NCBI RefSeq assembly: GCF_022760175.1
Contig: NZ_CP094326.1
Coordinates: 2,778,804 to 2,842,803 of the forward strand
Direction: 5' to 3'
DNA length: 64,000 nucleotides
DNA from: Zhouia spongiae
Lineage (GTDB): Bacteria > Bacteroidota > Bacteroidia > Flavobacteriales > Flavobacteriaceae
Below, in pieces: positions 38,821 to 64,000 of this stretch (the first letter of the stretch is position 1; each line of letters opens with the position of its first letter). The position numbers and the translations under genes are program-made. The notes beneath the pieces were generated by a model. That model searched no databases and was not told the DNA's origin. It saw only the letters and a program-made list of their open reading frames with translations.

Positions 38821-39477
38821 CAGAAGAAAATAATCGCTTTTTGTTTGTTTTTAATGATAATTATCCCTTAAATTTGCTTCAAGGGAATACAACACTAACA
38901 AATCTACGGAAAAATTAAGAAATACCCTTTCTGAGCTGTAATACATAGCTGTAAAAACAAAGAGAGGGACTTAATGAGTAGGTATATGATGTATTCAACG
39001 CAAATAAAATGTGTTATGGGATTGACGTTTAGCCTTAGTTTTTCCGGTACTCAAAATCCTTAAGCCAATAATATTGGCCTGTGTCCCATAACTGACGACT
39101 ACACTTTTTCATGGTATCCGGCCATGTGACGAATCTGATCTTAATCAATAAAGCATTTAGCAGCCATTTACGCTTGTTTGTAGATCAGTTGTTTACCGAA
39201 TAATTTATTCGATTGCGACAAGCTGAATGGTAAAAAGAGAATCGCTGCGGTCTCCGGCAATTAATCCGTTTATGGGATTAATATATGACCGGGGTAATTG
39301 CGAATGGGTTTTCAATGCAAACAGAGGTTATAAAAGATAAATGAGGTTCAGTATCAAGCATCTGGTAATAGATAAAAGCCTCAAAAATTTATCTCCGTAA
39401 CAAGATAACAAGATAACAAGATAACTGGATATCAGGATATCAGGATAATCAAATAACGTCATAATAACAAAAGGATC
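38821..39477. other. Structured 650-base gap between the XRE regulator and the HEPN gene
   Basis: It starts with a plus-strand promoter (38844-38876) and has no gene of normal size. Several perfect dyads follow: GTTATGGGA (39013-39021) with TCCCATAAC (39084-39092), which encloses GCCAATA-a-TATTGGC (39064-39078); CGAATAA-t-TTATTCG (39197-39211); and ATTAATCC (39260-39267) with GGATTAAT (39275-39282). A 29-codon frame (38974-39063, MSRYMMYSTQIK start) follows an AGAGAGGGA. Just before the HEPN gene is a tract of AACAAGATA and ATATCAGG tandem units (39398-39448). It could be a long leader or a separate RNA. Confidence 0.45.
38844..38876 (+). promoter_or_regulatory. Near-consensus Bacteroidota promoter with overlapping dyad
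   Basis: TTTG (38844-38847), a 21-base spacer and TAAATTTG (38869-38876) match the -33/-7 consensus (TTTG, 19-21, TAnnTTTG). The dyad TCCCTT (38864-38869) with AAGGGA (38881-38886) overlaps the -7 box and looks like an operator. It fires away from the XRE gene towards the HEPN gene about 600 bases downstream. Confidence 0.6.
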
Positions 39478-40779: not shown

Positions 40780-40870
40780 CCCACCGTAACAGGATAACAG
40801 CATCACAACATAACAGCGTAACATCATAATATCATAACATGATAACTCGATAACACCACTATCATCCCAT
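40780..40870. repeat. Low-complexity CATAACAY octamer tract
   Basis: A run of near-8-base units of the form ATAACATC/ATAACACC (with ATCATAAC and ATGATAAC variants) between the HEPN and AraC genes. Similar tracts occur near 35380, 38350, 51710, 55890, 57520 and 58070. Confidence 0.6.
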
Positions 40871-48308: not shown

Positions 48309-51300
48309 ATGTTTAAAAACGTTACAATATTCATAACACTGGTTCTCAATCTGGTATTTGTACACGCTCAGGAAAACGTTCTTGATCTTTCAGGGGAGTG
48401 GCAGGTAACCCTGAGTAAAAACAGGCCAGAGATAGCAAATACAACCGATTACAAAAGGGAAGGAATTATTAAACTACCATCGTCATTAGCCCGGCAGGGT
48501 TATGGTTTAAAAACAACCGGATCAGACTTTGGAGTGCTGACACCAACATACAAATATCTCGGTGTTGCCGTATTTGAAAGAACTATAGATATTCCTGAAG
48601 AATGGGAGCATAAACAGATTCAGATCTTTTTAGAACGTGTTTTATGGCAGTCTAAAATATTTATAGACGATGTAGAATTAAGCACACAGGATGCCCTGGG
48701 GACACCTCATATCCATAAGTTGGGTGTTCTTACTCCCGGTAAACACCGGCTTAAAATAGCGGTGAATAACGATATGATCCACAATATAGGAGATAAGGGG
48801 CATGCGTATGGAGCGTATACACAAAGTATTTGGAACGGGATTGTAGGAAGAATGGAGCTAACGGCACACGATCCTACTTTTATTTCAAAAATCCGCACTT
48901 TCCCAATGTTGGATAGCGATCAGTTAGGTGTCGAACTGGATATTACAGCAGCTAAAAAAGAAAAGGGTAAACTCACTTTAGATATCAGAGAACTAGGCAG
49001 TGAAAAAGTAGTGAAATCAGTTGAAGTAAGCTATAAACTGGAGGAAGGAACACAACAGAAAAATGTCCTTATAGATTTGAATGGGGTGTTGAAAAAATGG
49101 AATGAATTCGATCCGTCCGTGTATATTTTAACTGCCGACCTTAACACAAGAAAATATAATGATGTTAAAGAAACCGAGTTCGGATATCTTAAAATAAGTC
49201 ATAACGGCACCAATGTGCTTATCAATGATACCCCGGTTTTTTTACGGGGAAACCTCGATTGTGTGCATTTTCCGCAGACAGGTTACCCGTCAGCTAAGGT
49301 GGAAGACTGGGTACGGATATTTAAAATTTATAAAGACTATGGTTTAAACCATGCCAGGTTCCATTCATGGTGCCCCCCTGAAGCTGCTTTTAAAGCCGCC
49401 AACAGGGTAGGGATCTATTTACAGGCGGAAGCTTCTATCTGGATCGATTGGTGGATGAGTGTCGACAATACCGAGCGCGGACGTCCTGAAATGAATACCA
49501 AAGGCTTTCCTCAGGGACTTGGAAAAGATCCTGAGCGCGATCAGTTTGTAGTAGAAGAAATGAATCGCGTAGTCGATTATTACGGGAACCATCCTTCCTT
49601 CACCATGTTTTGTATTGGGAATGAACTCGGAAACTCCGATTTTGATGTCATGAAAAAATGGGTGAAAGACCTGAAAGAAAAAGATAGCCGACGTCTCTAC
49701 TCGGTTTCTACCGCCAGAAAAATTACCGAAGCAGACGATTATATGGCCACTCATTACATACAAAATGTAGGGAGAACAAGAGGTTTAAACGGAGCGCATA
49801 CCGATTGGGATTTTGAAAAGGTATACAGCCAGATGGATATTCCGATTATAGCCCATGAGATAGGGCAATGGCCGGTGTATCCGTCATGGAGTGAAATAGC
49901 GAAGTATAAAGGTGTTTTAAAAGCCAGGAATTTCGAGGAATTTAAAGCGGTAGCGGAGAAAAACGGTATAGCCGATCAGGCGGATGATTTTAAAATGGCT
50001 TCCGGTGCGCTAAACCAGATCATGTACAAGTACGAAACAGAATCTTTTTTAAGAACAAAAAGCTGTGCCGGAGTGCAGTTATTGAGTATGCAGGATTACC
50101 AGGGACAGGGAGAAGCGCTTATCGGCTGGTTAGATGCTAACTGGGAAAGCAAGGGGATAACAACCCCTCAGAAATTTAAGGCACATTTTAATGAAACCGT
50201 TCCTTTGTTGCGTATGGAAAAATTCGTGTGGACAACCGAAGAGCAGTTTAAAGGAGTTATACAGTTATCGCATTACGGCCGGTATCCGATTAAAGAAGGG
50301 AAAATCATAGCAAAAATTTCAACTTCATCAGGGCGTATTTTAAAAAGTAAAGAATGGGAAGTGCAAGATCTGGAGGTAGGGAGTTTGACAGATATCGGGA
50401 CTATTACCGAGTCGTTAAATACCATAGGGGAGCCACAGCAACTAACAGTTTCGGTAGCACTTGAAGGTACGGAATTCAAGAACGAATGGCATATATGGGT
50501 ATATCCAACTGCTGTGCCGGAAATTGACGATAAAGATATTATAGTTTCTCAAATGCTCGACAAAAAAACGCTTGAAGCATTAAAGAAAGGAAAAAATGTA
50601 TTGTTGTTGGCTAATAATTTGGGGACGGAAGAAACGAGTACTAATCTTTCTTTTAATCCCTTGTACTGGTCGCTTACTTTCTTCCCCGGACAAGGAAAGA
50701 CCAACCTGGGACTATTAATTAAAGATAAACATGCGGCCTTTAACAAGTTTGTAACCGACTACCATAGCGATTGGCAATGGGAAACGATAATGAAAGGTTC
50801 TAAAGGATTTATTTTGAACGACACTCCAAAGTTGTATAAGCCTATTGCGCAGGTAGTAGACGATTTTCATAGAAACAATAAAGAAGGTGCTGTTTTTGAG
50901 TTCAAGGTGGGTAAAGGGAATTTATTGGTTTGCGGTTTTAATATCGCTAACAGCGATTTACCGGTGGCAAAACAACTTTTATACAGTCTTAAATCTTATG
51001 TAGGGTCAGTCGACTTCAAACCTTCAACCCCTATCGCAGAGAACACCCTGAAAGAATTGTTTCCATATATCCCTAAGGCAGATAATGTGGCCGTTAAAGG
51101 AGCGTTTAAAAATGCAGTTCTCCAGGTTTTTGCAGCTAAAAACCTCGAGACAGAAAATGAAAGTGTCACTTGGGAAGGCACAAGTGATCAGGTTCTGATT
51201 CAAAAAGAAGTGAAGTATAATGTAAAAGCAGACGGAACATGGAAAGATGATAAAGGAACGGCCTGGCATGGTAAAGAAATGACGATCACAATGGAATGTC

Positions 51301-51545
51301 CGGAAGGAATGCTGGGTAGCTTTTATGTTTTGTTTGACGATTGGAATAAGCAGGATCGAGAAGGTATCGTGGAATTTGAAGGCAGAAAAGTACAGTTAGG
51401 AGCCCACAGCACAAAAGGCGGACAATGGGTTAAGTTTCATGTAATGAGGGAAGATAGTAATGATGGAAAATTAATCTTAAAGGCGAAAGCCACCAAGGGA
51501 AATAATTTAATGATCCGTGAAATAGCATTAGAAAAAGAAGAATAG
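48309..51545 (+). CDS. Glycoside hydrolase family 2 enzyme (secreted, beta-galactosidase/glucuronidase-like)
   Basis: A 1078-residue exported retaining glycosidase. A signal peptide (ends LVFVHAQ) is followed by the GH2 sugar-binding domain (FERTIDIPEEWEHKQIQIFLERV), an Ig-like domain and the TIM barrel (HARFHSWCPPEAAFKAANRVGIYL). The acid/base is Glu439 in CIGNELGNSD and the nucleophile probably Glu517 in IIAHEIGQW. Roughly 400 further residues form extra beta domains, making it longer than LacZ-like enzymes of about 800-1000 residues. With the sulfatase it should act on a sulfated glycan; the exact sugar is unknown. Confidence 0.9.
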   Translation: MFKNVTIFITLVLNLVFVHAQENVLDLSGEWQVTLSKNRPEIANTTDYKREGIIKLPSSLARQGYGLKTTGSDFGVLTPTYKYLGVAVFERTIDIPEEWEHKQIQIFLERVLWQSKIFIDDVELSTQDALGTPHIHKLGVLTPGKHRLKIAVNNDMIHNIGDKGHAYGAYTQSIWNGIVGRMELTAHDPTFISKIRTFPMLDSDQLGVELDITAAKKEKGKLTLDIRELGSEKVVKSVEVSYKLEEGTQQKNVLIDLNGVLKKWNEFDPSVYILTADLNTRKYNDVKETEFGYLKISHNGTNVLINDTPVFLRGNLDCVHFPQTGYPSAKVEDWVRIFKIYKDYGLNHARFHSWCPPEAAFKAANRVGIYLQAEASIWIDWWMSVDNTERGRPEMNTKGFPQGLGKDPERDQFVVEEMNRVVDYYGNHPSFTMFCIGNELGNSDFDVMKKWVKDLKEKDSRRLYSVSTARKITEADDYMATHYIQNVGRTRGLNGAHTDWDFEKVYSQMDIPIIAHEIGQWPVYPSWSEIAKYKGVLKARNFEEFKAVAEKNGIADQADDFKMASGALNQIMYKYETESFLRTKSCAGVQLLSMQDYQGQGEALIGWLDANWESKGITTPQKFKAHFNETVPLLRMEKFVWTTEEQFKGVIQLSHYGRYPIKEGKIIAKISTSSGRILKSKEWEVQDLEVGSLTDIGTITESLNTIGEPQQLTVSVALEGTEFKNEWHIWVYPTAVPEIDDKDIIVSQMLDKKTLEALKKGKNVLLLANNLGTEETSTNLSFNPLYWSLTFFPGQGKTNLGLLIKDKHAAFNKFVTDYHSDWQWETIMKGSKGFILNDTPKLYKPIAQVVDDFHRNNKEGAVFEFKVGKGNLLVCGFNIANSDLPVAKQLLYSLKSYVGSVDFKPSTPIAENTLKELFPYIPKADNVAVKGAFKNAVLQVFAAKNLETENESVTWEGTSDQVLIQKEVKYNVKADGTWKDDKGTAWHGKEMTITMECPEGMLGSFYVLFDDWNKQDREGIVEFEGRKVQLGAHSTKGGQWVKFHVMREDSNDGKLILKAKATKGNNLMIREIALEKEE

Positions 51546-51575
51546 TGTTTACCGAATAATGATGGTTAGGTTTTA

Positions 51576-51610
51576 CCCGCTGCGAATCTCAGGTTCAGGC
51601 GGGCTTTTTT
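51576..51610 (+). terminator. Probable terminator of the glycan locus
   Basis: CCCGC (51576-51580) pairs with GCGGG (51599-51603), followed by CTTTTTT. The stem is short and the loop long, so strength is uncertain. Confidence 0.5.
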
Positions 51611-51639
51611 ATGGTAGATGACATATAAACACAACTCCA

Positions 51640-51745
51640 ACCTCCCGATTGCCCGCTGCCCACTGCCTACTGCTCACTGCCAACTGCCCGCTGCCTACTG
51701 CTGATTGCCTCACCCCATAACATCATAACATGATAACTCGATAAC
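51640..51745. repeat. Composite low-complexity tract (CTGCCYACTG units then CATAACAY units)
   Basis: About 60 bases of 7-8-base units of the form ACTGCCTACTGC are followed by CCCCATAACATCATAAC-type octamers. The same two-part order is found at 57481-57545 and in reverse order at 58561-58630. Confidence 0.6.
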
Positions 51746-51867
51746 AACTCCAAACCCCTGTAAAATAAACTAACAAACAAACTTTGTTCATCAACATTTA
51801 TCCGTTAACTTTAAACCTCGATCCGATAAAGAATAAACGTATTACACAAAGACCTCACATATTATAT

Positions 51868-53976
51868 ATGAATACAGTACAGAAACAGTATGTTAATCGT
51901 GAGATAAGCTGGTTACAATTTAATGCAAGAGTACTTCAGGAAGCTGCAGATGAAACAGTTCCTTTAATAGACAGACTTCGGTTTGTAGGTATATTTTCAA
52001 ACAATCTGGATGAGTTCTTTAAAGTCCGCTATGCCACTGTAAAGCGGATTGCACAAGCAGGAAAAACAGGGAAAAGCTTCCTGGGGGGAGTCAATGCCAA
52101 AGAGTTACTCGATGAAATTACCCAGATAGTAATCAAACAGCAATCAGAAAGCCTGGCCATATTAAGAAGGATAGAGTCGCTACTCGATGAGGAGAATATC
52201 TATATGATTAATGAAAATGACGTAAGCCCTAAACAAGGGGAGTTTCTGAAAAGTTATTTCCTGGAGAAGGTAAGTCCGGCATTGGTGACCATCATTCTGA
52301 ATGATCTCGATAAAATTCCTTTACTAAAGGACAGTGCAGGGTACCTGGCTGTAAAAATGGTTATGAAAAACAAGAATGAACCCAAAGGGGTGAATAGGTT
52401 TTTTACCAATGTAACCAATGAAGTGCAATATGCCCTGATCGAAATTCCGAGAACTGTCGACCGCTTTGTTGTATTGCCTAAGGAGGGAGATAAAAGCTAT
52501 ATCATCTTTTTAGACGATCTGATCCGGTATAATCTGGGTAGTATCTTTAGTATTTTCGATTACGAATCGCTGTCTGCACATATGATTAAAATCACCCGTG
52601 ATGCAGAGCTTGATATTGATAACGATTTATCAAAGAGTTTTATCGAAAAAATATCTTCCAGTGTCCGCGACCGTCGAATCAGCGAGCCGGTACGCTTTGT
52701 ATATGACGATCAGATAGAAAAAGACACCCTGAAGTTCTTAAAAGACAAAATGGAAATAGAAGAAACGGATAGTGTAATTCCCGGAGGGAGATACCACAAC
52801 CGTCGCGATTTTATGAATTTCCCAAGTCTTGGAAGAACCGATCTGATGTATAAACATTATCCGCCATTGCCGATTGAAGGATTGCGTATGGAGGGGAGTT
52901 TACTTGAGCAGATCAGTAAAAAAGATTACCTGCTTTATGCTCCGTATCATACATTCTCATATGTGATTAAACTATTGCGGGAAGCAGCTTTAGACCCGAA
53001 GGTAAAAACGATCAAAATTACCTTATACCGCCTCGCAAAAAATTCACAGATTGCCAGCTCGTTGATCAATGCTGCTAAAAACGGTAAAGAAGTAACCGTT
53101 CAAATAGAATTACAGGCACGTTTCGACGAGGCGGCCAATATTCAATATGCAGAACAGTTACAGCAAGAAGGCATCAAACTTATTTTTGGTGTCCAGGGAT
53201 TAAAGGTCCATTCTAAAGTATGTCTGATAGAAAGAGAAGAGGGAAGTAAAATAATGCGTTACGGGTTTATCAGTACAGGTAATTTTAATGAGTCGACAGC
53301 CAGGCTCTATACCGATTATACGCTATTCACTTCCCATCAGCCGATACTGAAAGAGATAGCAAAAGTATTTAACTTTTTCGATACCAATTATAAGGTACAT
53401 AAGTACAAACACTTGGTTATATCGCCACATTATACCAAAAGTGTATTTTCAAAACTGATTAAGCAGGAGATTCAGAATGCGAGAGCCGGGAAGGAAGCGT
53501 TTATAAAACTAAAAATGAACAGCCTTACCAGTTATAAGATGGTCGATAAGTTATATGAAGCCAGCCAGGCCGGCGTTAAAATCCAGTTGATCGTACGGGG
53601 CACCTGTTGCCTGGTACCGGGTATCAGCGGATTGAGTGATAATATCGAAGCGATCAGTGTGGTAGATAAATATTTAGAGCATCCCCGTCTGTTCATTTTC
53701 AATAACGGGGGCGATCCTAAGGTGTATATATCCTCTGCCGATTGGATGACCCGAAATCTCGATTACAGGGTAGAAGTAGGATGTCCGATCTACAACGAAG
53801 AAATTAAACAAGAACTGATAGATACTTTTAATATCTGCTGGAGCGATAATGTAAAAGCCAGGATACATTCTGTAAAACAAGATAATGCCTATCGTAAAAA
53901 TAACAATGTAAAGGTAAGATCGCAGATAGCTACCTACGAATATTATCTGAAAAAAATGACCAAGATAGAAAATTAA
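51868..53976 (+). CDS. ppk1: Polyphosphate kinase 1
   Basis: A 702-residue enzyme building inorganic polyphosphate from ATP. The N domain starts YVNREISWLQFNARVLQEA with RLRFVGIFSNNLDEFFKVR. The two phospholipase-D-like catalytic domains contain IQIELQARFDEAANIQYAEQ-type and GLKVHSKVCLI (the autophosphorylated His), then DKYLEHPRLFIF with the second His. ATG 51868 is chosen because the family starts at this point; TTG 51784 would add 28 atypical residues. Exopolyphosphatase follows 100 bases downstream, giving a make-and-break polyphosphate pair. Confidence 0.96.
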   Translation: MNTVQKQYVNREISWLQFNARVLQEAADETVPLIDRLRFVGIFSNNLDEFFKVRYATVKRIAQAGKTGKSFLGGVNAKELLDEITQIVIKQQSESLAILRRIESLLDEENIYMINENDVSPKQGEFLKSYFLEKVSPALVTIILNDLDKIPLLKDSAGYLAVKMVMKNKNEPKGVNRFFTNVTNEVQYALIEIPRTVDRFVVLPKEGDKSYIIFLDDLIRYNLGSIFSIFDYESLSAHMIKITRDAELDIDNDLSKSFIEKISSSVRDRRISEPVRFVYDDQIEKDTLKFLKDKMEIEETDSVIPGGRYHNRRDFMNFPSLGRTDLMYKHYPPLPIEGLRMEGSLLEQISKKDYLLYAPYHTFSYVIKLLREAALDPKVKTIKITLYRLAKNSQIASSLINAAKNGKEVTVQIELQARFDEAANIQYAEQLQQEGIKLIFGVQGLKVHSKVCLIEREEGSKIMRYGFISTGNFNESTARLYTDYTLFTSHQPILKEIAKVFNFFDTNYKVHKYKHLVISPHYTKSVFSKLIKQEIQNARAGKEAFIKLKMNSLTSYKMVDKLYEASQAGVKIQLIVRGTCCLVPGISGLSDNIEAISVVDKYLEHPRLFIFNNGGDPKVYISSADWMTRNLDYRVEVGCPIYNEEIKQELIDTFNICWSDNVKARIHSVKQDNAYRKNNNVKVRSQIATYEYYLKKMTKIEN

Positions 53977-54076
53977 AAAATAGATATATTAGTAGCCCTG
54001 AAGAAAGAAAATAAATGTCAGACCCGAATGGATCAGGTATTCCGGTACCCGATTTCAGCAAATAAAATGTAAGCGA

Positions 54077-54985
54077 ATGAAAATCCGAAAATTTGCCGCT
54101 ATCGATATAGGATCGAATGCTATTAGACTGTTAATTAACAATGTTATTGAATCAGAAGGAAAAGATACCCAGTTTAAAAAAAGTTCGTTGGTCCGTGTTC
54201 CAATTCGCCTGGGACAAGATTCATTTACCGTAGGAGAGATATCTAAAAGCAATGCAACCCGTATGGTCGAAGCTATGAAAGCCTTTAAACTACTTATGAA
54301 AGTGCATAATGTAGAAAAATATATGGCTTGTGCTACATCGGCAATGCGAGAAGCAAATAACGGTAACGAACTTGTAGAAGCCATTCGCGATAAATCGGGG
54401 ATCAATATTGAGATTATAGACGGAAGAAAGGAAGCTGCGATTATAGCATCGACAGATCTGCATACCCTTATCGAAAAAGATAAAACCTATTTATATATAG
54501 ACGTAGGCGGGGGGAGTACAGAATTCACCATTTTTAACAGCGGTAAAGTATTGGCCTCCCGGTCGTATAAGATAGGGACGGTACGATTGCTGAATGAGAT
54601 GATTACAGAAGAGGTATGGAGAGATATCGAAAAATGGATCAAAAAGAAAACGAAGGAGTATAAGAAAGTAGAAATTATCGGCTCGGGCGGTAACATCAAT
54701 AAGCTGTTTAAGATGAGTGGCCGCAAACCGGGTACTCCGTTATCATATATCTTTTTAAATGCGCAATATCAGTTCTTAAAAGAAATGAGCTACGAAGACC
54801 GCATTTCCGAACTGGGACTGAATCCGGATAGAGCCGATGTGATTATTCCGGCGACACGTATTTACCTGAATGCTTCCAAGTGGAGCGGAGCTAAAAAGAT
54901 ACATGTCCCTAAAATCGGACTCTCAGATGGTATTATCAAGTTATTGTATAGTATAGAAAAAGACAAAGAACTGGCTCTTTTGTAA
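54077..54985 (+). CDS. ppx: Exopolyphosphatase, Ppx/GppA family (short form)
   Basis: A 302-residue member of the sugar-kinase/Hsp70 fold. ATP/phosphate-loop motifs FAAIDIGSNAIRLLI, YLYIDVGGGSTEFTIF and EIIGSGGNINKL are intact, as is CATSAMREANNG. It contains only the two catalytic subdomains and lacks the C-terminal HD-like domains of E. coli Ppx (about 510 residues), which is usual for the short forms. It removes terminal phosphate from polyphosphate or from pppGpp. It lies after ppk1 in the same direction. Confidence 0.93.
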   Translation: MKIRKFAAIDIGSNAIRLLINNVIESEGKDTQFKKSSLVRVPIRLGQDSFTVGEISKSNATRMVEAMKAFKLLMKVHNVEKYMACATSAMREANNGNELVEAIRDKSGINIEIIDGRKEAAIIASTDLHTLIEKDKTYLYIDVGGGSTEFTIFNSGKVLASRSYKIGTVRLLNEMITEEVWRDIEKWIKKKTKEYKKVEIIGSGGNINKLFKMSGRKPGTPLSYIFLNAQYQFLKEMSYEDRISELGLNPDRADVIIPATRIYLNASKWSGAKKIHVPKIGLSDGIIKLLYSIEKDKELALL

Positions 54986-55137
54986 ATGATTAACCCGATA
55001 TTTTGAGTGTTTTGTCAGAAGTGTAAAAAATGTATCTAAAAGAGAGCAGACTGCTTGGTTCAGGAGCTGTTCTGACAAAAGACGATAACCGATTGAGAAT
55101 CTGTAAAATTAATATCATAACAAGATAACCACGTAAC

Positions 55138-55891
55138 ACCATCACAATTAAAACCAATATACTTCTGAAACAAATTTAAAGCGTTAAATAAAAAACGTTA
55201 GTCCAATTTCTACATATAAAAACCTGCCATAGTCCTTTACAGGCGGGCACCTCATAAGTGAGAAATGTGTTAAGAATTAAACGCTGTTTGAGTCACACCC
55301 TAGCGAGGGGAGTTCGTTTAATTTAACATTCGAGCTTCCATGAGATCGCCGAAAAGGCAAGGCTTGATTTTTTGGTTCGTTTTGCATCAAGAACTGCGAA
55401 GCACATCATGAGAACCTTTAAAAATAATAGGGAACCCCTCGAATACAAATGCTTAGCATTCATGAGTTCCTTATCAAACAATAGAGGTCTCACGAATAAA
55501 ATGAACATAAATAAAACCATCACAATTAAAACCAATATACTTCTGAAACAAGTTTAAAGCGTTAAATAAAAAACGTTAGTTCAATTTTTACATATAAAAA
55601 CCTGCCATAGTCCTCTTTACAGGCGGGCACCTCATAAGTGAGAAATGTGTTAAGAATTAAACGCTGTTTGAGTCACGCCTTAGCGTGGGGAGTTCGTTTA
55701 ATTTAACATTCGAGCTTCCATGAGGTCGTCGAAAAGGCAAGGCTTGATTTTTTGGTTCGTTTTGCATCAAGAACTGCGCAGCACATCATGAGAACCTTTG
55801 AAAAACAATAGACAAGGTATCGAATACAAATGCTTAGCATTCATGAGTTCCTTATCAAACAATAGAGGTCTCACGAATAAAATGAACATAA
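55138..55891. repeat. Tandem duplication, unit about 378 bp (subtype A folded repeat)
   Basis: Copy 1 (55138-55515) and copy 2 (55516-55891) are nearly identical with scattered substitutions and a two-base indel (offset 378, then 380). Each contains a core (55275-55392 and 55655-55772) with the stem AATTAAACG / CGTTTAATT (55275-55283 with 55315-55323) followed by GATTTTTTGGTTCGTTTTGCATCAAG. The core is related to that of the 550-bp repeat at 57501. Apparent minus-strand frames through it are not genes. Confidence 0.85.
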
Positions 55892-56045
55892 AGCACCATA
55901 ACACCATAACACCATAACATCATAACATCATAACCCCAACAACCAATAATCCATTATCAATCGTTAATCAAAACTCTCCTGACTTCGGTCTTTTGACAAA
56001 AACCAACTTTCAAACTTTTAAGAGATTGCTAAACCCAATGATTTG

Positions 56046-56077
56046 TTTGTTGTATAAAACAAAAAATAATATATTTG
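56046..56077 (+). promoter_or_regulatory. Consensus promoter of the AAA ATPase gene
   Basis: TTTG (56046-56049), a 20-base spacer and TATATTTG (56070-56077) match the Bacteroidota -33/-7 consensus closely. The -7 box ends 49 bases before ATG 56127. Confidence 0.7.
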
Positions 56078-56126
56078 TTTGTTAAAGAAAACATTTTTTG
56101 AGTATAAATGTATTTTGTAGAGAACA

Positions 56127-57323
56127 ATGGATCGATTAGTAGAACAATTTCAAAGAAAATTAAAAGCCACTCCGCTTAAATTAGTACGATCTCTTATGAG
56201 TGATATAATATGGGATGCTCGATTAATTGGAATAAAAGGCGCCAGGGGTGTAGGAAAAACTACACTTATGTTGCAATACATCAAGTTAAACCTAAAAGAT
56301 GAAATAGATAAAACCTTATATGTTAGTTTAGACTCTTTTTGGTTTTCAGATAACAAGCTTATAGATTTAGTAGATCATTTTACAAAGACAGGTGGAAAGT
56401 ACCTCTTTTTAGATGAGGTTCATAAATATCCTAATTGGTCTCAGGAGTTAAAGAATATATATGACGATTTTCCTGAACTTAAAATTGTATTTACAGGTTC
56501 CTCGTTGTTAGAAATATTAAATGCCAGGGCAGACTTAAGCAGGAGGGCTATCGTGTATAACCTCCAGGGACTTTCATTTCGTGAATATTTAGTGCTAGAA
56601 ACAGGAGTTGAGTTTAAGCCCCTTACACTACCATACATATTACAAAACCATGATAGTATTTCTGAGGCAGTGTTAGAAAAAATAAGGCCGTTAGCTTATT
56701 TTCAATCTTATTTAAAGTCGGGTTATTATCCATATCATTTCGAGGGAAAGGAGAGTTATTATTTACGACTGAGAGAGGTTGTTAATCTGATGTTGGAAAT
56801 TGAATTGCCGTTATTACGAGGGGTTGATATTAACTATGTGCCTAAAATTAAACAGTTGCTTTATATTGTTTCCCAATCAGTTCCATTTATACCTAATGTA
56901 AGTAAGCTTAGTATTAAAATAAATATACAACGTACTACCTTGCTGGGTTATATGCATTATTTAGAAGAAGTAAAGCTTACCAATAACCTCTTTAAACAAG
57001 CTAATGGAATTAGTAAGTTGCAGAAACCGTCTAAAATTTACCTAGAGAACACAAATTTAAATTATCTATTGGCTCAGGATAAAGTAGATATAGGGAGCTT
57101 AAGAGAGACTTTTTTTGTAAATCAGTTGGTCTATAATCATCAACTGGAGTATGCTGATAAAGGAGATTTTGTTGTAGATGGCATATATACCTTTGAAATA
57201 GGAGGAAAAAATAAAACCAATCAGCAAATTAAAGGAATGACAAATGCATTTATTGCTGCAGATGAAATAGAATATGGTTTTCATAATAAAATCCCCTTAT
57301 GGATGTTTGGTTTTTTATATTAA
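56127..57323 (+). CDS. AAA_14/DUF4143-type ATPase
   Basis: A 398-residue ATPase. Walker A GARGVGKTTL (residues 38-47), Walker B KYLFLDEVHKY (91-101), a sensor FTGSSLLEI and the LSRRAIVYNLQGLSFREYL segment are those of AAA_14 proteins. A winged-helix region (about 245-300) precedes a C-terminal DUF4143-like domain whose FVVDGIYTFEIGGKNKTNQQ resembles a PD-(D/E)XK-type core (Asp, Glu and Lys in the right order). Roles of these widespread ATPases are unclear. It is a single gene with its own promoter, AT-rich, and set between two tandemly duplicated repeat blocks, which suggests acquisition by transfer. Confidence 0.85.
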   Translation: MDRLVEQFQRKLKATPLKLVRSLMSDIIWDARLIGIKGARGVGKTTLMLQYIKLNLKDEIDKTLYVSLDSFWFSDNKLIDLVDHFTKTGGKYLFLDEVHKYPNWSQELKNIYDDFPELKIVFTGSSLLEILNARADLSRRAIVYNLQGLSFREYLVLETGVEFKPLTLPYILQNHDSISEAVLEKIRPLAYFQSYLKSGYYPYHFEGKESYYLRLREVVNLMLEIELPLLRGVDINYVPKIKQLLYIVSQSVPFIPNVSKLSIKINIQRTTLLGYMHYLEEVKLTNNLFKQANGISKLQKPSKIYLENTNLNYLLAQDKVDIGSLRETFFVNQLVYNHQLEYADKGDFVVDGIYTFEIGGKNKTNQQIKGMTNAFIAADEIEYGFHNKIPLWMFGFLY

Positions 57324-58805
57324 GCACTAGTATTGAGTATTAAGAAAATGGAATAGAGTAAAGAAAAAAGAACAAAGAGTAAATAAGATATGTTATAGCA
57401 TAACAAGCATTCGTCTTCACGAGCCTTAGCGTTGATAGGGCGTGTTGATCTCATGGAGACTTGCGAACTCCATCACATAAAAGACTGCCTACTGCCAACT
57501 GCCTACTGCATCACCCCATAATCGTATAACAACATAACAGGTTAACTGTATAACTATATTAAAAAACATCTCCCCGTCATTTCGACATGAGGCGATAGCC
57601 GATTGAGAAATCTGTATGACTGGTAACCGCCATCCAGATCGCCAATCAAAAATCGTAACAAACTTTCAAATTTCAAACTCCATAACCTCATATCGGGATA
57701 AATTTATAGGTATATAGAAATAAAATCCCGCCCTAGGGTTTGGCAGGCGAGGACCCACTTTTCGACGAATCCGTTGAAATCAAACGCTGTTTGAGACTGT
57801 TCCAAAGAACAGGTGAGTTCGTTTGATTTAGGATTCAAGAAACTAGTGGATCGCCGAAAACCTAAGGCTTGACTTTTTGTTTCTTTTGCGTCAAGGCAAA
57901 AGAAAGGAAGTAATAATATATGAATCAATTGTTAATTATAAGAAGGACTTCTAAATACAATAACTATTCATCCATACAAACCTAAACCCACCAAACAAAC
58001 TTTACATTTCCTTAACACCATAACTTGATAGCACCATCACATAAAAGACTGCCTACTGCATCACCCCATAATCGTATAACAACATAACAGGTTAACTGTA
58101 TAACTATATTAAAAAACATCTCCCCGTCATTTCGACATGAGGCGATAGCCGATTGAGAAATCTGTATGACTGGTAACCGCCATCCAAATCGCCAATCAAA
58201 AATCGTAACAAACTTTCAAATTTCAAACTCCATAACCTTACATCGGGATAAATTTATAGGTATATAGAAATAAAATCCCGCCCTAGGGTTTGGCAGGCGA
58301 GGACCCACTTTTCGACGAATCCGTTGAAATCAAACGCTGTTTGAGACTGTTCCAAAGAACAGGTGAGTTCGTTTGATTTAGGATTCAAGAAACTAGTGGA
58401 TCGCCGAAAACCTAAGGCTTGACTTTTTGTTTCTTTTGCGTCAAGGCAAAAGAAAGGAAGTAATAATATATGAATCAATTGTTAATTATAAGAAGGACTT
58501 CTAAATACAATAACTATTCATCCATACAAACCTAAACTCACCGAACAAACTTTACATCTCCTTAACACCATAACTTAAAAGACTGTCTGCTGAATACTGC
58601 TGACTGCGAACTGCCTACTGCCTACTGCTAAGAGCAAACCAACAACCAGAAGCAAAAAATCCGTTTTCCCTTACAACTTCTCTAAAATATTATGTAGTTT
58701 TGACGCTGTTTAAAAATAACGGTCAAAGAACGTAATATGTAAAAGAGTGAGTCGTTGTTTTTTATGTAAAATAAACTAAGAGGTTTTAGTTTTAATAATA
58801 ATTAA
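57324..58805. other. Repeat-rich gap between the AAA ATPase and the polysaccharide locus
   Basis: No gene is seen. It contains ACTGCCTACTG and CATAACAY tracts (57481-57545; 58010-58070; 58561-58630) and the 550-bp tandem duplication. Reading frames at 57704-57928 and 58254-58478 are two copies of repeat sequence, not genes. Confidence 0.7.
57501..58576. repeat. Tandem duplication, unit 550 bp (subtype B folded repeat)
   Basis: Copy 1 (57501-58050) and copy 2 (58051-58576) align at a constant offset of 550 with only a handful of substitutions (for example at the bases following CCGCCATCC and CATAACCT). Each unit holds a GTCATTTCGAC...GAGAAATCTG element (57576-57614 in copy 1) of the kind widespread in Bacteroidota intergenic DNA. 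It also has a core with stem AAATCAAACG (57777-57786) / CGTTTGATTT (57830-57839) and inner hairpin CTGTTC-caaa-GAACAG. Confidence 0.9.
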
Positions 58806-59225
58806 ATGAAAGTAGGTATTACCTTTAGCACATTCGATTTACTTCATGCCGGACATATAAAAATGTTAGAAGAGGCAAAACAGCAATGTGATTATTTGAT
58901 AGTGGGTCTACAAACGGATCCCACCATTGATCGTCCTGAAAAAAATAAACCTTCACAATCAGTGGTAGAGAGATATATACAACTCAAAGGGTGTGTTTTT
59001 GTTGATGAAATCATTCCTTATACTACCGAACAGGACCTTGAAGATATACTCCGTGCTTTTAAAATAGATGTGCGTATTATAGGAGAAGAATATAAGGATA
59101 AGAATTACACGGGTAGATCTTATTGTGAAGAAAAAGCGATTGAGCTGCACTATAATAAAAGAGAACATAGGTTTTCAAGTACAGCATTACGTCAAAATGT
59201 AGCAGAATTAGAATTCAAAAAATAG
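58806..59225 (+). CDS. Cytidylyltransferase-like protein (TagD/adenylyltransferase type)
   Basis: A 139-residue nucleotidyltransferase. The HxGH motif is His14-Ala-Gly-His17 in [14 protein letters not shown], and the C-terminal RFSSTALR is the second nucleotide-binding signature. Length and layout match glycerol-3-phosphate cytidylyltransferase (TagD) and related enzymes that activate phospho-polyols as CDP derivatives for surface polymers. It lies 13 bases before ugd and opens the polysaccharide locus. The exact substrate is open. Confidence 0.88.
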
Positions 59226-59238
59226 CATTACAAATACC

Positions 59239-60642
59239 ATGAAAATAAAAAACATTTGCTGTATTGGAGCCGGATACGTAGGCGGACCAACCATGGCTGT
59301 TATAGCACAGAAATGTCCAGATATAAAAGTAACTGTAGTTGATATCAATGCCGATCGTATAGCTGCATGGAATGATGAAGATATAAGTAAATTACCGGTT
59401 TACGAACCGGGTTTGGATGAGGTGGTAGCAGAAGCAAGAGGAAGAAACCTGTTCTTTTCTACCGATGTGGATAAGGCTATAGACGAATCGCAAATGATTT
59501 TCATGTCGGTAAACACACCTACCAAGACCTATGGTAAAGGAAAGGGAATGGCTGCCGATCTAAAATTTATTGAGCTTTGTGCACGACAGATAGCAAAGGT
59601 GGCTAAAGATGATAAAATTGTTGTAGAAAAATCGACATTACCGGTGCGGACAGCATCGGCCATTAAAAATATATTGGATAATACAGGAAATGGTAACGGA
59701 ATTAAATTCCAGATACTTTCCAATCCTGAGTTTTTAGCCGAAGGAACGGCTATTCCCGATTTAATGAATCCCGACCGGGTATTAATAGGTGGTGATACTA
59801 CCCCGGAAGGACAAGAGGCAATTCAAGCCTTGGTAGATGTATATGCCAACTGGGTTCCAAAAGAACAAATACTCACTACCAATATCTGGTCTTCTGAGCT
59901 GTCTAAACTAACAGCAAATGCTTTTTTAGCACAACGTGTATCATCCATCAATGCAATGTCGGAACTATGTGAAAAAACTGGTGCTGATGTAAACGAGGTG
60001 GCAAAAGCTATTGGAATGGATAGCCGTATCGGACCTAAATTTTTAAAAGCCTCTGTTGGTTTTGGAGGATCGTGCTTCCAGAAAGACATACTCAACCTGG
60101 TATATATTGCAAAGACCTATGGATTGAATGAGGTGGCAGATTACTGGGAGCAAGTAATTATCATGAACGATCATCAGAAAAAACGCTTTGCAGATAATAT
60201 CGTAAGTACATTATACAACACCGTATCGGGTAAGAAAATAGCCTTCTTAGGTTGGGCTTTCAAAAAAGATACCAATGACACCAGAGAATCTGCAGCCATT
60301 TATGTAGCTGACGATTTATTGAATGAACAAGCCAGGGTTAGTGTATACGATCCAAAGGTTGTAGCAGAACGCATGTATGCGAATCTGGATTATTTAAACA
60401 CCCGCACGGCAGAAGAAAACAGAGAAGGTTTAGAGGTTTGCAAAGATCCTTATCAGGCCTGCGAAGGATCACATGCTATTGCAGTACTTACGGAATGGGA
60501 CGAGTTTAAGACCTACGACTGGCAAAATATATATGATAAGATGCAAAAACCGGCATTTGTTTTTGATGGAAGAGGGATATTAGACAAACAACAATTAAAG
60601 GACATAGGATTCGTTTATTACAAGATCGGAGAAGATAATTAA
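59239..60642 (+). CDS. ugd: UDP-glucose 6-dehydrogenase
   Basis: A 467-residue enzyme oxidising UDP-glucose to UDP-glucuronate with two NAD+. The N-terminal Rossmann motif [20 protein letters not shown] and length resemble the animal-type UGDH class. [19 protein letters not shown] and the catalytic Cys279 in [12 protein letters not shown] are intact, as is the C-terminal [16 protein letters not shown]-binding half. It supplies uronic acid for the polysaccharide built by the genes downstream; the last gene in the window is an alginate-lyase-family protein that fits a uronate-containing polymer. Confidence 0.96.
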
Positions 60643-60721
60643 ACGGTACTTCTACATTGTGTTCAGAATACATTTGTTAAAGATTATTATAATGCTTTAA
60701 TTATAATGATATTAATGGAAT

Positions 60722-62137
60722 ATGGGGAATAGTAAATCAAATAGTCTTTTACAAAAAAGTTTTATTTATGCTATAGGGACTTTTGGTTCTAAAGTTTTAG
60801 CTTTTTTGTTAGTTCCCATCTATAGCTATTACCTTAATCAAGATGAGTTTGGTTATTTTGATATTGTAATTACTGGAATAAATTTATTAGTACCATTTTT
60901 GACATTGCAAATTTCCGATAGTGTCTTTAGATGGTTATTAACAAATAAAGATGAACGAGAAAGGGAAAATATTATTACCAACAGTTTAATTTTGTTGCTT
61001 TTTAATGTCGTCATTACAAGTCTTTTATCATTTTTTTTATTTTTAGTTTATCCATTAAGAGGGCAGTTTTTGGTTACACTTGTATGTTGTTCAGCAATGG
61101 TTTATCCATATATGCAACAGGTAGCAAGAGGGGTTGGGAAGAATAAATTGTTTGCATTTAGTGGGTTATTGTATACAATAACATATTTACTATGCAATAT
61201 CTTTTTTTTAATATATCTAGGTTTAAAGCTGGAAGCATTGTTTTATTCGAACATATTAGCTTATGTGATAGGTTCATTATTTTTGTTTTGGAGGGTTAAA
61301 TTAAGCATATTCATAAAATTTAGATGTTTTGACTTTTTATATATTAAATCATTATTATCCTATTCTCTGCCTTTAGTGCCAAATACGATAAGTTGGTGGT
61401 TAATAAACTCTGCGAGTAAATACATTATTTTGATTTTTATCGGAGTTAGTGCAAATGGAATTTATGCCATGGCTGGAAGATTTCCTGTAATATTAGTGAT
61501 GGTTAATCAGGTTTTTACCTTGGCTTGGCAAGAAAAAGCTATTGTTGATCATCAAAAGAAGGTGGATAAGAAAAGCTATAAAAAAATATTACAAAATTTA
61601 ATTAAAATCCAATTTTCACTAGTAGCTGTACTATCTCTAGGCTCTCAATTTATGGTAGATTTTTTGTTGAGCAAAGATTATTATGAGTCATGGTTGTACA
61701 TGCCTTTGTTATATGTTAGTGTAGCATTTCTATCTTTTTCCGGATTTTATGGAGCTTTTTATTTGGGGGCTAATAAAACCAAGGAAGTTTTTCTAACGAC
61801 AATTGTTGGTGGAATAGTAAATGTAGTTCTAGCCTTATTATTAGTGAAGCTCATTGGGTTGTGGGGAATAGCGATTGCAAGTGCTATTGGTTATATAACT
61901 CTATTTATTATAAGAATTAAATCAACGAAAAAGATTATAAAATTAAATTTCCCTTGGAAAATTTGTATTAAATATGGCGTTCTGTTAATAGTTAGCTTAT
62001 TTGTAACATATATACAGAATGAGATTTATTCTTTAAGTTTTTTAGTGTTAATAGTTTTATTATTGATTGTAGATAATAAATTATTAATAAAATCACTTAT
62101 AGAAAGAATAGAAATAAAATCAATCACTAACAGATAA
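60722..62137 (+). CDS. Polysaccharide flippase (Wzx/MOP superfamily)
   Basis: A 471-residue inner-membrane protein with 12-14 helices and few charged segments, opening with SLLQKSFIYAIGTFGSKVLAFLL, the typical Wzx/RfbX start. It should flip undecaprenyl-linked repeat units to the periplasm. Strong AT bias (frequent AAA, ATA, TTA codons) contrasts with ugd just upstream, as is common for the variable, transferred part of surface-polysaccharide loci. It is followed two bases later by the pyruvyl-transferase gene. Confidence 0.9.
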   Translation: MGNSKSNSLLQKSFIYAIGTFGSKVLAFLLVPIYSYYLNQDEFGYFDIVITGINLLVPFLTLQISDSVFRWLLTNKDERERENIITNSLILLLFNVVITSLLSFFLFLVYPLRGQFLVTLVCCSAMVYPYMQQVARGVGKNKLFAFSGLLYTITYLLCNIFFLIYLGLKLEALFYSNILAYVIGSLFLFWRVKLSIFIKFRCFDFLYIKSLLSYSLPLVPNTISWWLINSASKYIILIFIGVSANGIYAMAGRFPVILVMVNQVFTLAWQEKAIVDHQKKVDKKSYKKILQNLIKIQFSLVAVLSLGSQFMVDFLLSKDYYESWLYMPLLYVSVAFLSFSGFYGAFYLGANKTKEVFLTTIVGGIVNVVLALLLVKLIGLWGIAIASAIGYITLFIIRIKSTKKIIKLNFPWKICIKYGVLLIVSLFVTYIQNEIYSLSFLVLIVLLLIVDNKLLIKSLIERIEIKSITNR

Positions 62138-62139
62138 AA

Positions 62140-63147
62140 ATGAAATTTGTAAATAAAAATAGAATAGAAGGACTTAAAAATATAGTAAGGAAAGAGCTTA
62201 CTAAGTATGTAAATTCTGATTACGTTTTATTGGATTTACCAAATCATAGAAATATAGGTGATTTATTAATTTGGGAAGGAGAGCTTAGTTATCTTCAAGA
62301 AATAAATCATAAATTGATATATAGCTGTAATTTAAACACTTATCAGGAGTCTAAGATATCGGAAGGTAAAGTTATATTATTACATGGTGGAGGAAATTTT
62401 GGGGATGTATGGAAAGTTAATCAAGAGTTTAGAAATAATATAATTTCAAAATTTAAGAATAATAGAATAATAATTTTTCCTCAAACAATACATTATAATA
62501 ATCAGGGCAACTTGTCTAGGGATGCGGAGTTATATAACTCACACCCAGATTTAATAATATGTGTTAGGGATACAGTATCATACGATTTAGCAAAAAAACA
62601 TTTCTATAATTGCACAATTCTGTTGATGCCCGACATGGCGTTCTTTGTTGATCTTTCCTCAAAGCAAACAAAAGTGAAAACAAATAAAACTTTAATAATG
62701 AGAAGGTACGATAAAGAATTAGGTAATGTTAAATTACTTAATAAGATTAAGCAAAGCTTGCTATCAGATGGTGATATGTTTGAGGAAAAAGATTGGCCTG
62801 GTTTTTATAAAGAGGGTACTTTAATTAGAAGAATTCAGGCTTATTTAATTAGAGCAGAAATAATTGGATCTAAAAAACTATTGAAAATACCATTTCTATG
62901 TCAATTAGTAGATGATAACCATGGTTTGAAAAATAGGAATTATAAGAACAAACAAATAAATAAAGGAATCAAATTTATAAATGAGTATGATAAAGTGTAC
63001 TCTACAAGGCTACATGGTTTTATCCTATCCGTTTTATTAAATAAGGAGATTTTTATTTTTGATAATAGCTATGGGAAAAATAAAAACTTTTTTAATACAT
63101 GGTTGAGTGATTTTGAAAAGGTTAAACTAATTGGAGATAAGGGGTAG
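62140..63147 (+). CDS. Polysaccharide pyruvyl transferase family protein
   Basis: A 335-residue protein with the family's two-lobed layout: NHRNIGDLLIWEGELSYL at the N-terminus, VILLHGGGNFGDVW, IIFPQTIHYNN, then LIMRRYDKE and the late YSTRLHGFILSVLLNKE motif. Members add ketal-pyruvate or act as glycosyl-type transferases on exopolysaccharide sugars. It is coupled to the flippase gene (two-base gap) and very AT-rich, like that gene. Confidence 0.88.
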   Translation: MKFVNKNRIEGLKNIVRKELTKYVNSDYVLLDLPNHRNIGDLLIWEGELSYLQEINHKLIYSCNLNTYQESKISEGKVILLHGGGNFGDVWKVNQEFRNNIISKFKNNRIIIFPQTIHYNNQGNLSRDAELYNSHPDLIICVRDTVSYDLAKKHFYNCTILLMPDMAFFVDLSSKQTKVKTNKTLIMRRYDKELGNVKLLNKIKQSLLSDGDMFEEKDWPGFYKEGTLIRRIQAYLIRAEIIGSKKLLKIPFLCQLVDDNHGLKNRNYKNKQINKGIKFINEYDKVYSTRLHGFILSVLLNKEIFIFDNSYGKNKNFFNTWLSDFEKVKLIGDKG

Positions 63148-63229
63148 TATATGTATAGGTATAACATTTATAGTGAGAGACGATAGTGCTAAATAAAAAT
63201 TATTCGTTTATATAATAATCTATGATTAT

Positions 63230-64000
63230 ATGAGGAAAAATGTTGTTTTTATCTTTTGCTTCTTTACTATTCAGTTTTTAGCCTCTCAAACATTCTCATT
63301 CAAATATGAAGATATACAGAGAATTAAAAGAAAAATTGCATCTTCTGAATCAGAAAACTATAATGAAGCCTATAATTTACTTATTGAAGTAGCAGATTCG
63401 GTTAGGAATAGTAGGTATTTTCCAAGGGTGACTTCAAAAAAAATTACAGATGTAACTGCTGATATCCATGATTATGTGAGTATGGCAACATATTGGTGGC
63501 CTGATACAACAAAGAATAATAAAGTTCCTTATATTAGAAAAGACGGTGTTGTTAATCTAGAGGTTAAAGTGATTACCGATAATTACAATCTGGTTAGGTT
63601 TTGCCGTTCTATTAAGATACTTGGATTGGCTTATTTTTATTCAGGTGATGAAAAATATGCGAAAAAGGGAGGTGAGATGTTAAGAACATGGTTTATCCAT
63701 CCGGAAACAAAGATGAACCCTAACTTACAACATGCTCAATTTATTAAAGGAGTTAATAATGGAAGGATTGAGGGAATCGTAGACGCTCGTTTTTTTATAG
63801 ATATGATTGATGGGCTACAATTAATGAAAAAGAGTCGTTATATTACTGATGATAATGTTTTAAAAATAGAGGAATGGTTTAAAACTTTTTTAAATTGGAT
63901 GGAAACAAGCGAACAAGGAAGGCAGGGAATGAGTTTAAATAATAATATTGGAACTTCCTATCATTTGCAAAGATTAGTTTACCATGCTTTTATTAATGAT
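63230..64000 (+). CDS. Alginate lyase family protein (N-terminal part, cut by the window edge)
   Basis: An open frame of 257 codons reaches the window end. A signal peptide (MRKNVVFIFCFFTIQFLASQ) is followed by the alpha-toroid alginate-lyase domain: HDYVSMATYWWPDTTKNN and VPYIRKDGVVN near residues 80-107, then MNPNLQHAQFIKGVNNGR and the GMSLNNNIGTSYH segment with likely catalytic Asn and His. These are signatures of the PL5/PL17-type alginate_lyase domain. In a polysaccharide-building locus it may trim or release a uronate polymer in the periplasm instead of feeding on it. Confidence 0.85.
   Translation, partial: MRKNVVFIFCFFTIQFLASQTFSFKYEDIQRIKRKIASSESENYNEAYNLLIEVADSVRNSRYFPRVTSKKITDVTADIHDYVSMATYWWPDTTKNNKVPYIRKDGVVNLEVKVITDNYNLVRFCRSIKILGLAYFYSGDEKYAKKGGEMLRTWFIHPETKMNPNLQHAQFIKGVNNGRIEGIVDARFFIDMIDGLQLMKKSRYITDDNVLKIEEWFKTFLNWMETSEQGRQGMSLNNNIGTSYHLQRLVYHAFIND

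Follow-up and report, generated by a model that had tools for sequence, protein, structure and literature searches.

A new family of palindromic MITE-like repeats with a hairpin core common to two bacterial phyla

ERIC and YPAL, together with other bacterial MITEs, are intergenic, non-coding repeats of about 70-300 bp that form one long stem-loop; ERIC itself measures about 127 bp, is intergenic, should by prediction fold into a single long stem-loop and is listed for Enterobacteria and Vibrio (PMC3733652, PMC2267715). REPs are 20-40 bp long, carry a GTAG or CGTC tag and are linked to RAYTs (PMC3733652), and BrickBuilt of Porphyromonas gingivalis is a MITE with a 23-nt minisatellite inside (PMC4596501). 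The repeats described here lie in a 64-kb window (the whole stretch of DNA that was analysed) at 2778804-2842803 of the genome of Zhouia spongiae, a member of the Flavobacteriaceae. They resemble ERIC and other MITEs in being intergenic and non-coding and in forming a single long hairpin, a likeness in form. Unlike ERIC and YPAL, the element has its own sequence and hosts, its stems vary freely, and an apical core common to two phyla is combined with differing ends. It shares with REP, BIME and REPIN repeats palindromes whose stems change in a complementary way from one subfamily to another, and dimers in some genomes, whereas its length of about 140-180 nt sets it apart, as does the lack of a RAYT in the genome and of any beside an element in 30 Y1 loci. 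BrickBuilt is likewise a Bacteroidota MITE-like repeat with tandem short repeats, a likeness by description, but here the arrays, of octamers and heptamers, stand beside the element instead of lying inside it. Integron attC sites, IS200/IS605 ends and N4 promoters are recognised as folded single-stranded hairpins in which the stem is variable and the loops or bulges are constant. Our element has the same combination of variable stem and constant loops, read here from sequence alone and with no integrase or HUH partner shown. A literature search whose coverage lacked most subscription journals showed no paper on this element among the matches listed. We regard the family as new: palindromic, MITE-like and with a hairpin core that crosses phyla.

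Four copies stand in the window. They were delimited with model R1, which was built from nine copies of the Z. spongiae genome and keeps the first drawing of helix 1 that is discussed below. The features are as follows.

55223..55506, + strand: element A1 (model R1 match 55223-55406; 3' parts from sequence and alignments)
55226-55363: long hairpin of A1
55375-55385 and 55498-55506: arms of the A1 3' hairpin, with ~107 extra bases between
55601..55887, + strand: element A2 (model R1 match 55601-55774; alignment)
55604-55743: long hairpin of A2
55654..55704, + strand: core of A2, stem (G)AATTAAACG / CGTTTAATT(T), tip stem CACGC(C) / (A)GCGTG
55755-55765 and 55879-55887: arms of the A2 3' hairpin, with ~107 extra bases between
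55894..55938, + strand: tandem octamer array (CACCATAA)n, adjoining A2
56127..57323, + strand: orphan gene for an AAA_14 ATPase, separating the A and B pairs
57727..57906, + strand: element B1 (model R1 match, fold, inverted repeat)
57730-57868: long hairpin of B1
57777..57829, + strand: core of B1, stem AAATCAAACG / CGTTTGATTT, loops CTGTTTGAG and GAGTT, tip stem CTGTTC / GAACAG
57880-57905: 3' hairpin of B1
58277..58456, + strand: element B2 (model R1 match; tandem copy of B1, 300 nt, 99%)

A reading of the sequence-only kind had proposed two subtypes, A and B, each tandemly duplicated. Both pairs are real: subtype A gives direct repeats of 190 nt (96%) at a spacing of 380 and of 103 nt (96%) at a spacing of 378, and subtype B gives a 300-nt direct repeat of 99% identity at a spacing of 550. 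Exact GCTGTTTGAG occurs in the window only at 55283, 55663, 57786 and 58336. The combination TCGCCGAAAA...AAGGCTTGA is matched exactly three times (A1, B1 and B2) vs 0 in 100 shuffles, and A2 carries GTCGAAAA in its place. The proposed compensated change is also borne out, with the stems as they had been written: a T-A pair of the subtype A stem is C-G in subtype B. That stem does pair as proposed and is now placed as the inner section of a hairpin that extends further outwards, while the TTTTGC...TCAAG part that had been noted on the 3' side is present as a separate hairpin, distinct from the long one. In A1 and A2 this second hairpin is split by ~107 bases that set its right arm apart from its loop. 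These bases are absent from the copies at L014:14806 and L014:17957. The inserts occupy window positions 55392-55497 in A1 and 55772-55878 in A2, with a GCGNAGC mini-hairpin inside, and similar sequence is found elsewhere in the Z. spongiae genome and in genome G014 (locus L122). Amid the repeats at L014:16137-17314 are a DUF5675 protein and a neighbour with no Pfam match; L122 has, next to elements, a protein that by eye looks similar to this neighbour. For the AAA_14 ATPase gene, no link to the elements was shown.

The element is a single long imperfect hairpin of ~140 nt with constant internal loops, running from a GCC close to the 5' end as far as the GGC that precedes CTTGA, and in Bacteroidota it is followed by the second hairpin on the 3' side. 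The extent of the outer helices was first read from sequences and then tested by outer-arm pairing. The shared apical core is AAAT-N5-GCTGTTTGAG-(tip)-GAGTTC-N5-ATTTA, in which the constancy of AAAT, GCTGTTTGAG, GAGTTC and ATTTA is by construction because many loci were fetched with a pattern containing them; the pattern left the five N on each side free. The outer stem and the lower inner stem vary freely with pairing kept. Across the nine genome copies, 92.2% of cells are paired (37-52% in slid registers) and 12 pairs have changed on both sides. The nine-copy structure has four helices, of which helix 1 was probably mis-drawn: in this helix of model R1 (CCCGCC/GGCGGG) no pair has changed on both sides, and outer helices replace it. 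In a set of 42 cores from Bacteroidota and Desulfobacterales-type bacteria (43 diverse cores chosen by script, minus one with a long tip), 96.6% of cells are paired and covariation reaches 0.534 vs 0.113 when shuffled. Two weaker measures were less decisive, with both-side changes reached by 14/500 shuffles and further pair types by 30/500.

Pairing beyond the core was assessed by matching each element's 75-nt arm to its own partner and to foreign arms (loci L013-L244). The own arm paired better than the mean of foreign arms in 61/62 Bacteroidota elements and in all 38 of the other group, which is composed mostly of records titled Desulfobacterales or Deltaproteobacteria with one 'Proteobacteria' and one 'bacterium'. 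About 57 positions per arm were aligned on average in Bacteroidota and 65 in the other group. With the inner 12 bases removed, the own outer arm remained the best partner when set against up to 10 foreign arms in 36/43 Bacteroidota and 17/18 other elements. Because own arms mostly pair best even without these 12 bases, the element is one long hairpin. The earlier call for a covariation check across genomic copies has thus been answered with a very strong signal: in 99/100 elements the own arm is a better match than foreign arms are on average.

Covariation this strong also speaks for a structured RNA family, either a small RNA or an mRNA-stabilising hairpin, that is multicopy by chance and under selection at the level of the transcript. 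GNRA and UNCG are the usual tips of RNA hairpins, and GNA and GNNA loops are unusually stable in DNA. Tetraloops called with our own parser close 52 of 100 distinct cores, and 26 of these are GNNA, 8 CNNG, 4 GNRA and none UNCG, unlike usual RNA tips; among triloops, 19/25 are GNA. Judged by this general criterion, the tip loops look DNA-like. Comparison of isolated G·T and A·C mismatches as a test of DNA vs RNA gave a mixed answer. Over whole arms the ratio is 42:42 in 48 Bacteroidota elements, a comparison blurred by loop positions because the same arms have another 120 isolated mismatches that are neither G·T nor A·C, and it is 22:8 in 22 other (mostly Desulfobacterales) elements. In the fixed ten-pair inner stem the ratio is 11:2 for Bacteroidota and 1:1 for the other group. 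The excesses of G·T in the Desulfobacterales arms and in the Bacteroidota inner stem favour RNA, but several of the eleven G·T cells in that inner stem represent a single change that subtype A copies of one genome have in common. A control of 20 tRNAs gave 35 G·T and 0 A·C and is biased, as the tRNA finder disfavours A·C. The transcript-based explanation also draws on position: two Tenacibaculum genomes, at loci L170 (5518-5681) and L222, have a copy in the same short gap of an apparent thiamine gene cluster, and G147 (L292) has one at the matching place. Against it, a search of 14 kb (window 50000-64000) with Rfam covariance models gave nothing at E ≤ 1, and the many tandem and nested copies are atypical of an RNA gene. 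On this evidence we regard a structured RNA as unlikely, though deserving of serious attention.

Copies elsewhere, which the sequence-only reading had asked for, were found both in the Z. spongiae genome and in other bacteria. In the closed 4.04-Mb genome, model R1 returned 24 rows at E ≤ 1 and 21 at E ≤ 1e-7, the latter at 1.13, 1.37, 2.83, 2.87, 2.89, 3.09, 3.32 and 3.88 Mb. Nineteen of these 21 are on the plus strand and 2 on the minus strand, a count whose members are not independent because many copies are tandem. Six subtypes (A to F) were named, and the copies at 3.32 Mb include a variant of A. Several short-repeat arrays adjoin elements, and octamers of the CATAACAN type have 19 matches in the window (up to 3 mismatches) vs 0 in 100 shuffles. 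Intergenic arrays of this type lie at window positions 39398-39457, 40787-40846 and 55894-55938 and beside elements elsewhere in the genome too; CTGCCTA-type heptamer repeats lie at 51650-51710 and 57490-57510. The tandem units of A and B span their octamer or heptamer flanks. Since each duplication takes in a whole unit together with its flanks, the tandem pairs of the window are most likely a later product of recombination or slippage between these flanking repeats.

Scanning genome contigs with a strict core pattern gave at least 120 stretches. By record title, those listed comprise 41 Bacteroidota, 75 Deltaproteobacteria or Desulfobacter-type, 3 'Proteobacteria' and 1 'bacterium', the hosts being Flavobacteriaceae, Pedobacter, other Bacteroidetes MAGs and many Desulfobacterales-type MAGs. 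The relatives in distant bacteria have the same hairpin tip and different stems, which suggests a mobile element that conserves its fold rather than its sequence. Within the family, R1 matched 32/60 genomes (E ≤ 0.001), some through the 3' hairpin only. The strict pattern matched 7/395 Bacteroidota genomes, 6 of the 7 in the same family, with 0 matches to the reversed pattern, and a core model (R2) gave 6 matches at E ≤ 1e-5 over 296 genomes; both tools are insensitive, and the pattern recovers only 3/21 places in the Z. spongiae genome. Twenty-five genomes picked for holding a match have 1 to 72 copies each, and most multi-copy genomes carry them on both strands, the exception being G473 with 19 on one strand. 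Plasmids queried with subtype B only and phages queried with subtype A only gave no match. One strict core match was seen among viral contigs, on an IMG/VR contig (L350:7493-7533). That two unrelated repeats resemble each other by chance might be entertained from the window, which holds only two subtypes, but six subtypes in the genome, the same core in at least 120 stretches elsewhere and no reversed-pattern control in 395 genomes leave that idea with a negligible probability.

One form of the element, found in Desulfobacterales MAGs, has the terminal inverted repeats CGTAAAAAG / CTTTTTACG with ends about 176 bp apart, so that it is, like a MITE, non-coding, under about 300 bp and bounded by terminal inverted repeats. 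As in transposed MITEs, direct repeats of 6-7 bp stand at its ends in 10 of 15 copies. Among 15 copies with both CGTAAAAAG ends intact (two mis-paired rows having been dropped), at least 5/6 flanking bases are repeated in 10 and all six in 8, and the mean flank repetition of the set was reached by 0/2000 shuffles. Bacteroidota copies form an inverted repeat over their full length and have a vague left end, and inspection of the flanks of 37 copies gave no consistent target duplication. In Desulfobacterales the CGTAAAAAG ends are not confined to elements with the core, because most solitary ones flank other short inserts. Short Desulfobacterales elements with CGTAAAAAG ends and other interiors are found at L179:2032-2169, L194:6014-6152 and L206:2213-2357. 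The congener G021 is without the three-copy array of the 3323-kb (3.32-Mb) locus, with flanks conserved at 75-78% and no core in the corresponding locus (L345). Inverted element pairs about 50-80 bp apart occur in apparent Rhs-type regions of G016 (L124, L126).

None of the copies examined has an obvious gene of its own. Together with the Desulfobacterales inverted-repeat ends and target duplications, this makes the earlier proposal of mobilisation in trans plausible, while the RAYT-like transposase that had been named as the candidate was not supported by the search. REP/BIME-type repeats mobilised by a RAYT (a Y1 HUH transposase) would account for multicopy, intergenic hairpins with compensated stems and for the inverted pairs of G016. 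Yet the complete Z. spongiae genome has 0 matches to PF01797 (4 candidates scored), and around 30 Y1 transposase loci, with flanks of ≤1.5 kb (shorter at contig ends), no R1 match was found below E 0.04. Several of these loci carry other palindromes; Flavobacteriaceae Y1 genes at L140, L143, L144, L147 and L148 are beside other GC-rich palindromes. A Y1 match is present in 16 of the 32 family genomes with an R1 match and missing from the other 16, and 9/28 genomes without an R1 match have one. Since the element is also about 140-180 nt and not 20-40, we consider RAYT mobilisation very improbable. Among the matches listed from 5 fragmented MAGs, no autonomous relative bounded by these ends at an IS-like distance appeared, and the searches of this analysis found no mobilising enzyme.

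The copies are clustered, and their surroundings bring up another explanation, in which old palindromes sit in variable regions such as polysaccharide clusters and are copied passively by homologous recombination or gene conversion. Downstream of the window pairs are cytidylyltransferase-like, UDP-glucose dehydrogenase, Polysacc_synt and PS_pyruv_trans genes, and the polysaccharide region of Z. spongiae has element arrays on both sides. Elements are often near polysaccharide genes and, by reading, also in the Rhs regions of G016. Among 140 proteins near elements (of 151) there are 6 Epimerase, 6 Glycos_transf_1, 3 Bac_transf and 3 UDPG_MGDP_dh matches, families absent from the 25 commonest of 110 control proteins (of 115 sampled from 166), with proteins above 750 aa left out. 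This enrichment is a lead only because the loci are not independent, several proteins being counted from the same few loci, and because the 25 commonest families per set were compared, so that single-match control families are not all listed. Passive copying also sits poorly with the Desulfobacterales target duplications and with dispersed copies on both strands, and we judge it quite improbable.

We therefore favour, with a confidence that is real but modest, the view that these repeats are mobile elements of a MITE-like (ERIC-like) family, palindromic and non-coding, that have a common hairpin tip and are recognised in trans by an enzyme. Such an enzyme would recognise the folded core and move the element, presumably seeing folded DNA rather than RNA, and tandems would form afterwards by recombination or slippage at the flanking octamer or heptamer repeats. 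Distinct ends and target duplications are seen in Desulfobacterales copies only, and one common mechanism in both phyla is something that we infer, because the outer stems of Bacteroidota and Desulfobacterales differ. More tentatively, and as a possibility that we would not yet bet on, the core with its constant loops and GNA or GNNA tips, carried in Bacteroidota and Desulfobacterota by elements whose stems and ends are unrelated, may be the site at which a transposase or replication enzyme, so far undescribed, recognises DNA in a folded single-stranded or cruciform state. If the mobile-element reading is true, selection preserves the shape and a small number of letters in the loops while nearly all stem letters turn over, in elements of two phyla with differing outer stems and ends. 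The hairpin would then offer a defined substrate for finding the enzyme that reads it, and the family would account for a class of assembly-breaking repeats around the polysaccharide loci of marine Flavobacteriaceae.
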